Source of the DNA: Woeseia sp.
GTDB lineage: Bacteria; Pseudomonadota; Gammaproteobacteria; Steroidobacterales; Woeseiaceae
DNA: 64,000 nt
Assembly (NCBI GenBank): GCA_021773015.1
Contig: JAJFKW010000001.1
Location: 992,001 to 1,056,000, forward strand
Reading direction: 5' to 3'
The notes under the pieces were generated by a model. The model worked only from the letters and a program-made list of their open reading frames with translations, did not search any database and was not told the origin of the DNA. This document shows, in pieces, positions 48,254 through 53,464 of this stretch (positions within the stretch are counted from its first letter, which is position 1; each line of letters starts with the position of its first letter). The translations under genes were made by a program, and so were the position numbers.

Positions 48254-48724
48254 TTAGCGAATTGGCAGCGCCGTAGAGTGCTTAAAGTCGGTCATTACCA
48301 TACTCGAATTAACTTCCTGAATGCCCGGCAATTGCGACAGTGATTCGAAGAAAAACTGCTCGTACGATTTGATATCTTCCGTCACGATTCGCAGAAGAAA
48401 ATCCACCGTGCCCAACAATACATAACAATCCAATACCTCCGGATACTGGCTCACAGTTTCGGCGAATTTCGCGACGTTACTGCGTCCGTGCGATGTTAGC
48501 TTTACGTGCGCAAATACCATCGTGTTCAAGCCAACTTTCTCGCGATCAAGGATTACTGGCTGATCTTTGATGATGCCTTCATCGCGCATGCTTTGTATTC
48601 GGCGCCAACAGGCCGACTGCGACAAGCCAATCTTCTCACCAATTGCGGAGGCCGTTATGCCGGTTTCAGTTTGCAGGAGATCCAATATTTTGCGGTCAAT
48701 TTGATCAATGTGAATGTCTTGCAT
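48254..48724 (-). CDS. Lrp/AsnC-family regulator (BkdR-like)
   Basis: A 156-residue feast/famine regulator. The N-terminal helix-turn-helix spans IDRKILDLLQTETGITASAIGEKIGLSQSACWRRIQSM. The RAM ligand-binding domain follows, with LDCYVLLGTVDFLLRIV. It diverges from leucine dehydrogenase and the branched-chain dehydrogenase genes, the same arrangement as Pseudomonas bkdR. It is therefore a strong candidate activator of those genes in response to branched-chain amino acids. Its start codon lies inside a 13-bp palindrome. Confidence 0.92.
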   Translation of the reverse strand: MQDIHIDQIDRKILDLLQTETGITASAIGEKIGLSQSACWRRIQSMRDEGIIKDQPVILDREKVGLNTMVFAHVKLTSHGRSNVAKFAETVSQYPEVLDCYVLLGTVDFLLRIVTEDIKSYEQFFFESLSQLPGIQEVNSSMVMTDFKHSTALPIR

Positions 48725-48733
48725 AGTCTATGC
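48721..48733. promoter_or_regulatory. 13-bp palindrome over the Lrp-type regulator start codon
   Basis: GCATAGTCTATGC is a perfect palindrome around a central T and includes the regulator's ATG (48724-48722 on the minus strand). Its centre is 31 bp, about three helical turns, from the centre of the larger dyad at 48740-48776. It is probably a second binding site used in autoregulation. Confidence 0.45.
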
Positions 48734-48739
48734 TCTCAA

Positions 48740-48776
48740 TGCCTATTTATCGCATTGATTATGCGCTAAATAGGCA
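48740..48776. promoter_or_regulatory. 37-bp near-perfect dyad between Lrp-type regulator and leucine dehydrogenase
   Basis: TGCCTATTTA (48740-48749) is mirrored by TAAATAGGCA (48767-48776), and CGCAT (48751-48755) by ATGCG (48761-48765), around TGATT. Fifteen of 16 arm pairs match. The centre lies about 69 bp upstream of the predicted leucine dehydrogenase transcription start and over a possible CATAAT -10 of the regulator. It is a likely Lrp-type operator that activates one gene and represses the other. Confidence 0.65.
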
Positions 48777-48790
48777 CTTAGCAAAAGAAT

Positions 48791-48820
48791 TTGCAATAAA
48801 AAACCCACGTAGGCGATATA
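48791..48820 (+). promoter_or_regulatory. Possible leucine dehydrogenase promoter
   Basis: TTGCAA (48791-48796) and GATATA (48815-48820) are spaced 18 bp apart, and the start codon is at 48858. The -10 is ambiguous in the run GATATATATT. The position just downstream of the dyad at 48740-48776 suits activation by the adjacent regulator. Confidence 0.4.
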
Positions 48821-48857
48821 TATTGTGTTCTTCTGAGCGTCAGTCCAGGCCGGCAAT

Positions 48858-49955
48858 ATGAGCGTATTTGACCATCCCGAATTTGATCAGCACGAATCGG
48901 TACATTACTTCCAGGACCCGCAGACAGAGCTAAAAGCCATTATCGCCATCCACTCCACCGCGCTTGGACCTGCTGCCGGCGGTTGTCGACGATGGAGCTA
49001 TGTAAGCGACGCCGAGGCCCTCACCGACGTTCTACGCCTGTCACGAGGCATGACCTACAAAAATGCAGTTGCCGGCCTTCCATTCGGTGGCGGAAAATCC
49101 GTCATACTCGCCGATCCATCGACCAGTAAAACACCAGGCCTGTTTAGGGCATTTGGACGCGCCGTCGCATCGTTGGACGGAAAATACATCACGGCAGAAG
49201 ACGTTGGCATAAGCGTCGAAGACATGCTGCAAGTACGCGGTGAAACGCGTTTTGTTTCCGGCCTGCCACAAAGCGGCCAGGCCGCGGGCGGCGACCCGTC
49301 GCCATGGACTGCACTTGGCGTGTTTTTGGGCATTCAAGCTGCAGTTGAAATTCGCTTGGATACCGGCTCGCTTCGCGGCATAAAGGTAGGCATACAGGGC
49401 GTCGGTCATGTCGGTCATCACTTGTGCAGATTGCTACACGATGCCGGTGCAGAACTGACGATCGCCGACGTCAAACGAGAACATTGGCAGCAAGTCGACG
49501 CTGACATGCCAGTTACCGTTGTCGCACCTAGCGAACTGCTATCTGCGGACGTCGATGTTCTAGCACCCTGCGCGCTTGGTAATGTCATCAACATGGACTC
49601 AATTTCGCGCATGCGAGCAAAGATAGTTGCTGGGGCAGCGAACAACCAACTTTCGAATTCTCACGACGGTGCGCGTTTGGTTGAGCAAAACATTCTCTAC
49701 GCGCCAGACTATGTCATCAATGCGGGCGGCATAATTAGCGTCGCACGTGAATATCTCGAGCAAGGATCCGAAGATGAGGTTCGCAATGAAGTCGGTTTAA
49801 TTCCCGATCGGCTGCGGCGGATCTTTACCGAAGCCCAGACAACGTCAAAGGCTACCAATCGGATTGCCGATGAACTCGCTCGTCGCATCGTAGCGGACGC
49901 AAGCTCTGACGCAGATGACGATCTCGCCGAAGAATTTTCGCAACCTGCTTCGTAG
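48858..49955 (+). CDS. Leucine dehydrogenase (Glu/Leu/Phe/Val dehydrogenase family)
   Basis: NAD-dependent oxidative deamination of leucine, valine and isoleucine to 2-oxoacids. The 365-residue protein has the catalytic lysine in MTYKNAVAGLPFGGGKSVI, the AEDVGISVEDM stretch, and the Rossmann GxGxxG in VGIQGVGHVGHHLC, followed by APCALGNVIN and GAANNQL. It heads the BKD operon, supplying its substrates directly. It diverges from the Lrp-type regulator. This replaces the usual transaminase entry point. Confidence 0.93.
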   Translation: MSVFDHPEFDQHESVHYFQDPQTELKAIIAIHSTALGPAAGGCRRWSYVSDAEALTDVLRLSRGMTYKNAVAGLPFGGGKSVILADPSTSKTPGLFRAFGRAVASLDGKYITAEDVGISVEDMLQVRGETRFVSGLPQSGQAAGGDPSPWTALGVFLGIQAAVEIRLDTGSLRGIKVGIQGVGHVGHHLCRLLHDAGAELTIADVKREHWQQVDADMPVTVVAPSELLSADVDVLAPCALGNVINMDSISRMRAKIVAGAANNQLSNSHDGARLVEQNILYAPDYVINAGGIISVAREYLEQGSEDEVRNEVGLIPDRLRRIFTEAQTTSKATNRIADELARRIVADASSDADDDLAEEFSQPAS

Positions 49956-50019: not shown

Positions 50020-51255
50020 ATGACCAATAGATCTCGCTTACATATTCCACAACCGTCTGCGCGACCCGGCGACGAACCGGATTTTAGCTATCTCAATCTC
50101 AGTCCAGCAGGCAGCGTTGAGCGACCTGCTGCGGATGCGCGCACAAGGGAGATTGAGCACCTTAGTGTGGAATTAATACGCGTATTAGACGACGATCATC
50201 GTGCGCAGGGCTCCTGGAACCCAGCTCTGGAGCCCGCAGCTCTGCAAGTGGCACTGCGCTGGCTGCTGTTGACCCGCGCATATGACGAGCGGATGTGGCA
50301 GATACAGCGACAGGGTCGCATCTCCTTCTACATGCAATCGACTGGTGAAGAAGCTGTATCGATTGGCCAGGCAATGGCGCTGCGGCCTGGTGATATGTGC
50401 TTTCCGTCATATCGAAACCAGGGTCTGTATCTGTATCGCGGCAGCAAGCTTGTTGACATGATGTGCCAATGTTTGTCGAACACCGGCGACATGTGTAAAG
50501 GGCGCCAAATGCCGATCATGTATCACAATCGTGACGCCAATATTTTTTCGATATCTGGAAACCTGGCCACGCAATATCCGCACGCAGTTGGCTGGGCCAT
50601 GGCGTCTGCAATCAAGGGTGAAGATCACATCTCAGCATCTTGGGTTGGCGACGGCAGTACCGCGGAAGCCGATTTTCACCATGCGTTAACGTTCGCCGCC
50701 ATCTATCAGGCGCCGGTCATATTAAATGTAGTCAACAATCAATGGGCAATTTCTACTTTCCAAGGCTTCGCCGGCGGTGAGCGGCGGCCATTCGCAGCAC
50801 GCGGCCTAGGGTTAGGCATTCCGGGCATTCGAGTAGACGGTAACGACTTACTCGCGGTATATGCGGCAACCACTTGGGCTGCTGAAAGGGCGCGCCGCGG
50901 AGGCGGTCCGACCCTCATCGAGCATGTCACGTACCGCGGCGGCGCGCACTCGACCAGCGATGATCCAACCAAGTATCGTCCGAAAGACGAGTGGCTTGAA
51001 TTCCCACTTGGAGACCCGCTGGAGCGACTAAAAAATCACTTGATCGGCGAAGGCCATTGGTCAGAAGAAGAACATGAAAGCGTGCAAGCGGAAATGCGCG
51101 ACAAGGTTCAGGTTGCTTGGAAAGAGGCGCAAAAACAAGGCACGATGACTGAAGGGCCTTACCTCGACCCGGCAACAATGTTCGACGATGTATTCGTGGA
51201 AACGCCACAACATCTGGAAATGCAACGACAACAAATGCTCGATTTGGAATCCTAG
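50020..51255 (+). CDS. bkdA1: Branched-chain 2-oxoacid dehydrogenase E1 alpha
   Basis: TPP-dependent decarboxylating subunit for the oxoacids of leucine, isoleucine and valine. Its 411 residues and QRQGRISFYMQSTGEEA, KGRQMPIMYHNRD and VGDGSTAEADFHHAL...NNQWAIST pattern match Pseudomonas BkdA1. The ATG at 50020 is preferred over a TTG at 49987. E1 beta begins two bases after its stop, so translation is tightly linked. The leucine dehydrogenase directly upstream supports the substrate. Confidence 0.94.
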   Translation: MTNRSRLHIPQPSARPGDEPDFSYLNLSPAGSVERPAADARTREIEHLSVELIRVLDDDHRAQGSWNPALEPAALQVALRWLLLTRAYDERMWQIQRQGRISFYMQSTGEEAVSIGQAMALRPGDMCFPSYRNQGLYLYRGSKLVDMMCQCLSNTGDMCKGRQMPIMYHNRDANIFSISGNLATQYPHAVGWAMASAIKGEDHISASWVGDGSTAEADFHHALTFAAIYQAPVILNVVNNQWAISTFQGFAGGERRPFAARGLGLGIPGIRVDGNDLLAVYAATTWAAERARRGGGPTLIEHVTYRGGAHSTSDDPTKYRPKDEWLEFPLGDPLERLKNHLIGEGHWSEEEHESVQAEMRDKVQVAWKEAQKQGTMTEGPYLDPATMFDDVFVETPQHLEMQRQQMLDLES

Positions 51256-51257
51256 CG

Positions 51258-52274
51258 ATGGCACAAATGAATATGATCGATGCCATCAGATCGGCGCATG
51301 ACGTCGTGATGGCCAAAGACCCGAACGTTGTTGTCCTTGGCGAGGATGTTGGCTACTTCGGTGGCGTTTTTCGTTGCACCGATGGGTTGCAACGAAAATA
51401 TGGAGAGCACCGAGTGCTGGACGCGCCGATTGCTGAAGGTGGCATCATCGCCGCGGCGATTGGCATGGGCGTAAATGGCCTGCGCCCTGTAGCAGAAATT
51501 CAATTTGCCGATTACATCTATCCTGGCTTTGACCAGGTTGCGAGTGAACTTGCACGACTCCGTTACCGCACTTGCGGAGACTATTTCTCACCAGTAACCA
51601 TCCGCACCCCTTGCGGCGGTGGAATTCGTGGCGGACAAACCCACTCGCAAAGTCCCGAAGGAATATTTACACACGTCAGCGGTATTACGACCGTCATGCC
51701 TTCAAACCCGTATGACGCGAAGGGTTTGTTGATCAGCGCAATAGAGTCGGACGATCCCGTCGTATTTTTTGAGCCAAAACGCATTTACAATGGACCATTT
51801 GATGGCGATCCTAACAAACCTGCCGTCCCCTGGACCACACACCCGAAAGGCGAGGTTCCAGAGGACTATTTCACGGTGCCGCTGGGCATTGCCGACATCG
51901 TTAAGCCCGGCAGCGAATTAACCATTATTACGTACGGCACGTTGGTACACGTCGCGCAGGCTGCAGCGAGGCTCACTGGCGTCGATGCGGAAATTATTGA
52001 TGTACGGACACTGGCGCCGTTGGACGTAAGTACGCTGGCCGATTCCGTGTGCAAAACCGGCCGCTGCCTTATCGCCCACGAAGCGACTCGATTTAGTGGA
52101 TTCGGAGCCGAATTAGCCGCCACTGTACAGGAGAATTGTTTTTACAGTTTAGAGGCACCCATAGAGCGCGTGGCAGGTTGGGATACGCCGTATCCACATG
52201 CATTTGAGTGGCAATATTTTCCCGGGCAAAAGCGTATCGCCGCCGGAATTCGTAAAGTTATGGAGGCGCAATGA
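51258..52274 (+). CDS. bkdA2: Branched-chain 2-oxoacid dehydrogenase E1 beta
   Basis: Transketolase-like partner of E1 alpha, 338 residues. It has VVLGEDVGYFGGVFR, DAPIAEGGIIAAAIG, TPCGGGIRGGQTHSQSPEG and IAHEATRFSGFGAEL, all close to BkdA2 proteins. An insertion near FDGDPNKPAVPW is typical of the branched-chain type and absent from the E1 beta at 3861. Its last four bases overlap the E2 start (ATGA). Confidence 0.95.
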   Translation: MAQMNMIDAIRSAHDVVMAKDPNVVVLGEDVGYFGGVFRCTDGLQRKYGEHRVLDAPIAEGGIIAAAIGMGVNGLRPVAEIQFADYIYPGFDQVASELARLRYRTCGDYFSPVTIRTPCGGGIRGGQTHSQSPEGIFTHVSGITTVMPSNPYDAKGLLISAIESDDPVVFFEPKRIYNGPFDGDPNKPAVPWTTHPKGEVPEDYFTVPLGIADIVKPGSELTIITYGTLVHVAQAAARLTGVDAEIIDVRTLAPLDVSTLADSVCKTGRCLIAHEATRFSGFGAELAATVQENCFYSLEAPIERVAGWDTPYPHAFEWQYFPGQKRIAAGIRKVMEAQ

Positions 52275-53464
52275 GCGAACATATATTCAAACTTCCGGAC
52301 CTCGGCGAAGGGACGGTGGAGTCTGAGATTGGCGAATGGTTTATCAAAGTTGGTGACGAAGTTGCCGAGGAGCACGTCGTTGCTACGATGATGACCGACA
52401 AAGCTGCAGTCGAAATTTCATCGCCAGTATCCGGCAAAGTCATTTCTCTCGCGGGCCAGCCAGGTGACATGGTAGCTGTCGGTGCACCGCTTGTTGTCTT
52501 CGCGACTAACGGAAACTCTGTAGACTCCGAGGTAGAAATTGCGCAGTCGAAACCTGCAGCACAGTCTAGGCAAGGCGTTGAACAAAAAAGCGCGAACTCA
52601 CCGAACACTAAGGTGGCGACGTCGCCAGCAATTCGTAGACAAGCTAAAGAAGCTGGTATCGATCTGGCAACGATCAAGGGCAGCGGTACTGGCGGAAGAA
52701 TATTGCGTAGCGATATGGAAGCGCTCATCCAAGATCGTTCGGTAAAACCGGCGACTTCCCTGCCTGGCACGAAAACCATCGAGAAAAAAATCATCGGCTT
52801 GCGCCGAATTATTGCCGACCGTATGAGCGCGGCCAACCGTGAAATTCCGCATTTTTCCTACGTTGAAGAAACTGACATCACAGAATTGGAAGCGCTGCGC
52901 AAACATTTGAACGAAAAAAACGATAGCCCGCAAAGTCGTCTAACATTGCTTCCGTTCATTGCTCTTGCTCTGGTGCGTGCGCTGCACGAATTTCCGCAAT
53001 GTAACGCAACCCATGACCAAGCGCGAAACTTGTTATTGCAGCATGCTCACGTAAATTTGGGTATAGCGACGCAAACATCCGACGGACTGAAGGTTCCCGT
53101 CGTACGCAACGCCGAACAAAAGTCTGTCCTCGAGTTGGCTGCGGAAATTCGCAGAGTCTCTGATTCGGCGCGCAGCAATAGCGCCAGGAAAGACGAACTC
53201 AGTGGGTCAACCATTACCATTACGAGCCTTGGTAAGTTGGGCGGCATCGCGACGACGCCGGTGATCAATATGCCAGAAGTCGCGATCGTTGGCATAAATC
53301 GGGCCGTCAGTCGACCCGTTGTTGTAGACGATCAAATTGCGATTAGACTTATGATGAACATATCGTCATCTTTCGATCATCGATTTGTTGATGGCTATGA
53401 CGCGGCTGCGATGATTCAGCGAGTCAAAGAACTCCTCGAACACCCCGCGACAATATTTGTTTAA
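52271..53464 (+). CDS. bkdB: Branched-chain 2-oxoacid dehydrogenase E2 (lipoamide acyltransferase)
   Basis: Acyltransferase core of the BKD complex, 397 residues. The lipoyl domain has Lys44 in MMTDKAAVEI; a peripheral subunit-binding domain is visible at about residues 118-150 (ATSPAIRRQAKEAGIDLATIKGSG is split there), and the catalytic domain ends with DHRFVDG, keeping His370 and Asp374. No dihydrolipoamide dehydrogenase (lpdV) follows, unlike in Pseudomonas, so E3 must come from another locus. Confidence 0.94.
   Translation: MSEHIFKLPDLGEGTVESEIGEWFIKVGDEVAEEHVVATMMTDKAAVEISSPVSGKVISLAGQPGDMVAVGAPLVVFATNGNSVDSEVEIAQSKPAAQSRQGVEQKSANSPNTKVATSPAIRRQAKEAGIDLATIKGSGTGGRILRSDMEALIQDRSVKPATSLPGTKTIEKKIIGLRRIIADRMSAANREIPHFSYVEETDITELEALRKHLNEKNDSPQSRLTLLPFIALALVRALHEFPQCNATHDQARNLLLQHAHVNLGIATQTSDGLKVPVVRNAEQKSVLELAAEIRRVSDSARSNSARKDELSGSTITITSLGKLGGIATTPVINMPEVAIVGINRAVSRPVVVDDQIAIRLMMNISSSFDHRFVDGYDAAAMIQRVKELLEHPATIFV

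Follow-up and report, generated by a model that had tools for sequence, protein, structure and literature searches.

In the Woeseia sp. DNA analyzed here (a stretch of 64 kb, hereafter the window), a gene for a regulator of the Lrp/AsnC family and a gene for leucine dehydrogenase (ldh) diverge from a shared gap of 133 bp, and ldh is followed by genes for a branched-chain 2-oxoacid dehydrogenase. The features of the locus are as follows:

48254-48724, minus strand: Lrp/AsnC-family regulator gene (156 aa; HTH and RAM ligand-binding domain), from its open reading frame and Pfam
48721-48733, unstranded: site 1, GCATAGTCTATGC, a perfect 13-bp palindrome centered on 48727 that overlaps the regulator start codon, from the sequence
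48740-48776, unstranded: 37-bp dyad, TGCCTATTTATCGCAT-TGATT-ATGCGCTAAATAGGCA, 15 of 16 arm pairs, centered on 48758, from the sequence
48752-48764, unstranded: site 2, GCATTGATTATGC, the 13-bp center of the dyad, conserved and built like site 1
48758-48763, minus strand: CATAAT within site 2, which may be a -10 for the regulator gene itself, suggested by its sequence only
48781-48794, unstranded: site 3, GCAAAAGAATTTGC, a third phased palindrome centered on 48787.5, about three turns beyond site 2
48819-48824, plus strand: -10-like hexamer TATATT of the ldh-bkd promoter, present as TATATT in 34 of 43 aligned regions
48858-49955, plus strand: leucine dehydrogenase gene (ldh), from its open reading frame; the solved structures nearest to it belong to leucine (Glu/Leu/Phe/Val) dehydrogenases
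50023-51255, plus strand: branched-chain 2-oxoacid dehydrogenase E1 alpha (bkdA1-like); closest to the 2-oxoisovalerate dehydrogenase structures 2bp7 and 1qs0 (E about 1e-159)
51258-52274, plus strand: E1 beta (bkdA2-like), from its open reading frame and profile matches
52271-53464, plus strand: E2 acyltransferase (bkdB-like), from its open reading frame and profile matches

The regulator scored above the cut-offs of PF13404 and PF13412 (HTH) and of PF01037 (AsnC_trans_reg), and thus has both the AsnC-type HTH and the RAM domain that mark the Lrp/AsnC family; its solved relatives are 3i4p, 2p5v and E. coli Lrp (2gqq). E. coli Lrp and AsnC belong to the same family, but the regulator is the equivalog of neither, reaching 85.6 bits against the NCBIfam cut-off of 233 for Lrp (NF008370) and 50.6 bits against that of 227 for AsnC. 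The solved structures nearest to the E1 alpha protein are 2-oxoisovalerate dehydrogenases, not pyruvate dehydrogenases. An earlier note on this DNA, made from the sequence alone, had placed an Lrp-type regulator back to back with leucine dehydrogenase, and this reading is supported.

The same note had described two palindromes in the gap, a perfect one of 13 bp over the regulator start codon (48722-48724, minus strand) and a 37-bp dyad with 15 of 16 paired arm bases, with 31 bp between their centers. Both are present, and the distance holds (48727 and 48758). The dyad was placed about 69 bp upstream of ldh, which is wrong, its edge being 81 bp and its center 100 bp from the ATG at 48858. Moreover, a third palindrome, site 3, had been overlooked, and it is the one closest to the ldh promoter. 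Taken alone, the 13-bp palindrome means little, because odd palindromes of this length are common: the window contains 31, compared with 18.4 +/- 4.2 in 20 windows simulated as first-order Markov sequences, and 163 of 3000 intergenic regions simulated in the same way contain at least one. The 37-bp dyad is the sole member of its class in the window, and such dyads occurred in none of the 20 simulated windows and in one of the 3000 simulated intergenic regions.

Besides the window, 53 loci with a regulator of at least 50% identity were collected. After removal of L001, which is the window itself, and of loci with identical upstream sequence, 47 remained including the window; L016-L019 (51-55% identity) were also dropped, leaving 43 distinct intergenic regions, that is, the window and 42 relatives. 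The named relatives are Woeseiaceae or unclassified gammaproteobacterial or proteobacterial MAGs. Site positions were sought within limited ranges in the spacing survey, and the 43 regions are related sequences, so that the counts given below are not independent.

Across these regions the spacing of the three sites proved nearly invariable. The centers of sites 1 and 2 are 31 bp apart in 31 regions, 32 bp in 10 and 30 bp in two; those of sites 2 and 3 are 29.5 bp apart in 42 of 43, and the start of the -10 hexamer lies 31.5 bp from the center of site 3 in 41 of 43. A combined three-site score peaked at the expected place in every region, ranging from 17 to 26, compared with 13.6 +/- 1.3 in first-order Markov controls (99th percentile 17, maximum 20); two of the 43 real scores do no better than this 99th percentile. 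Regions upstream of 13 other Lrp-family genes scored 11-17. A review of archaeal regulators (PMC2995911, partial text) describes Lrp-family sites as imperfect palindromes of 13-17 bp with AT-rich centers, two or three turns apart; the sites here are 13-14 bp long and follow at steps of 31 and 29.5 bp. The phasing of about three turns suggested by the earlier note is thus kept in relatives and agrees with published Lrp-type operators, such as those of Ss-LrpB and BarR as presented in the partial texts compared. L017 and L019 come from a different family of the order and carry regulators of 51% identity next to ldh; they too have sites 1 and 2 at a distance of 31 bp, but no site 3 was found at the same spacing.

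The sites differ in how well each is kept. Site 2 (consensus GCATAaATTATGC over the 43 aligned regions) retains the GCAT half together with the ATGC half in 28 of 43. With position unrestricted, the best match to GCATN5ATGC falls on it in 38. For site 3 (consensus TTaGCAAAngAAaTnGCAA), the best match to GCAAAN4TTTGC was uniquely at the site in 30 of 43, again with position unrestricted. Site 1 (consensus tTGCATnAtTnATgc) is the weakest-supported of the three: its left half, GCAT in 42 of 43, is fixed by the start codon, so that half of its conservation has another cause, and its right half reads ATGC in 13 regions and AT in 29.

The -10 hexamer belongs to a conserved block with the consensus gATATATTg. 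No good -35 was found for the ldh-bkd promoter, the best match with a spacer of 16-18 bp having at most three of six positions in all 43 regions. Judged from the -10 hexamer, transcription of ldh would start near 48831, which would put the sites near -43 (site 3), -73 and -104. The candidate -10 of the regulator inside site 2 was not reported by a promoter consensus scan.

The array is followed by ldh in 37 of the 43 regions. The other six (L010-L014 and L031) lack ldh at this place; there bkdA1 comes directly after the array, all three sites and the -10 being preserved. Its persistence there ties the array to the operon and not to ldh in particular. In its own genome the perfect tandem pattern is found a single time, apart from one match with two mismatches, which makes the regulator look local. 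Single sites with up to two mismatches numbered 25 in that genome against 20 in a reversed control, and a genome-wide regulon was rejected on both counts. At the level of the order, the perfect pattern was found in seven of 196 genomes, six of these at the regulator-ldh junction; the match in L084 has no regulator, ldh or bkd match around it and was taken as chance. At the level of the class, it was found in four of 274 genomes, namely the own genome and three others in which the DNA around the match yielded no hit for the regulator or for the ldh and bkd proteins; these were likewise taken as chance, and a class-wide spread was discarded.

Given the three sites, their phasing and conservation and the genes beside them, we consider it highly probable that one operator-promoter here serves both a local Lrp-family regulator resembling BkdR and a divergent (ldh-)bkd operon, an arrangement in which an oligomer on three phased sites would activate the operon and repress its own gene. 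Dimers of one Lrp oligomer would bind the three palindromes along the same side of the helix (centers 48727, 48758 and 48787.5), and the oligomer may bend or wrap about 90-100 bp; wrapping by an octamer is what we infer from the arrangement of the sites. Site 3, near -43, may stand in for the absent -35, activating ldh-bkd in a class II-like manner with the aid of the dimers at sites 2 and 1. The same binding would also repress the regulator, since site 2 overlaps its likely -10 and site 1 covers its start codon. The effector is likely to be a branched-chain amino acid.

Comparable schemes are known from published Lrp-family systems. In Pseudomonas, BkdR activates a divergent bkd operon (PMC8707732, partial text), and the same arrangement, an Lrp-family gene divergent from branched-chain ketoacid dehydrogenase genes, is found here; the likeness is one of gene arrangement, and unlike in the BkdR system the operon is usually led by leucine dehydrogenase. 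AsnC is described in part of the same source as activating its target and repressing itself. A further parallel is BarR of Acidianus and Sulfolobus, also of the Lrp family, whose gene diverges from an amino acid catabolic gene across an intergenic region with three semi-palindromic sites at regular intervals; according to the part of the report available, an Ah-BarR octamer on the three sites, with wrapped DNA, represses its own gene and activates the divergent target (PMC10201364). BarR differs in being archaeal and, in that partial account, in its effector (beta-alanine), its spacers of 17 and 27-29 bp and its site sequence. Ss-LrpB of Sulfolobus solfataricus likewise has three sites in a control region, with about 100 bp wrapped around three dimers (PMC2995911, partial text), but it is archaeal, with another site sequence and other targets.

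Sites 2 and 3 might instead be bound by a different regulator, for example of the TyrR or LiuR type, with the Lrp protein acting elsewhere. For Shewanella, TyrR and LiuR have been predicted to control ldh and bkd (PMC3223726, partial text), and site 3, a 14-mer with GCAAA arms, has a geometry unlike that of sites 1 and 2, which are 13-mers with GCAT arms, so that site 3 could belong to another protein. Nevertheless, all six perfect tandem matches in the family adjoin the regulator gene, one site covers its start codon, and phasing by three turns is a habit of the Lrp family, which makes this alternative unlikely.

The 37-bp dyad invites a reading at the RNA level, namely as a hairpin in the regulator leader that controls translation or transcript stability, DNA binding being secondary. 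The minus-strand RNA of 48725-48800 does fold well (-26.6 kcal/mol, z -4.45 against 200 shuffles). The relatives, however, do not keep the paired arms that such a leader calls for: the core pairs around site 2 (3 to 6 bases from the center) are complete in 28 of 43 regions and three of four in 12, whereas the outer pairs (7 to 18 bases from the center) number 11 of 12 in the window and 0-6 of 12 in the 42 relatives, in which the core and the phasing persist. No terminator-like site was found at the locus either, and with a -10 inside site 2 most of the dyad would be untranscribed. An RNA hairpin or terminator as the main function was rejected on the lost outer arms and the missing terminator-like site, and we regard the leader hairpin as very improbable. 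Judged by the outer pairs, no relative shares the full extent of the dyad with this genome, and the pairing of the small palindrome with the whole dyad, as the earlier note had it, is not supported; the conserved unit is the 13-bp site within the dyad, one of three such sites. As to whether the right arm was copied to the left by template switching, the right arm matched the profile of the relatives somewhat better than the left (5.6 against 2.4 bits), but the left too exceeds nearly all relatives.

It is also hardly credible that the conserved blocks are merely promoter and translation-start elements with palindromes as by-products. In favor of this are the start codon in the left half of site 1, the possible regulator -10 within site 2 and the promoter-like look of the AT-rich centers, but a -10 or a start codon would leave both halves of site 2, site 3 and the fixed step of 29.5 bp unexplained.

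Returning to the operator of three phased sites, the growth of site 2 into a 37-bp dyad in this genome alone might be a second, lineage-specific layer, a doubtful proposal in which additional half-sites, flanking the core on both sides at a distance of one turn, would tighten the wrapped complex or the regulator leader would gain an RNA hairpin, perhaps through template switching on a selected core palindrome.

In the open-licence literature we found no description of this operator. The switch is of a known type, well conserved but not new in kind, BarR and Ss-LrpB already showing the design, and the three-site array leaves knowledge of the Lrp family itself unchanged. What it adds is a comparison across Woeseiaceae-type bacteria that maps an Lrp-type operator cleanly, with three sites, a fixed phase and a fixed distance to the -10, kept even when the first target gene is lost. 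In the literature compared here, the phased-dimer design has so far been best shown in archaea, and the array offers an inexpensive way to examine how, at a bacterial promoter, Lrp dimers in phase do the work of a -35 and at the same time shut off the gene that encodes them.

A minor observation concerns the regulator protein itself. In 37 of the 43 regions, the window included (48714-48724), codon 2 encodes Gln (CAA or CAG), so that the N-terminus of the regulator may be under constraint from the operator that overlaps its start codon.
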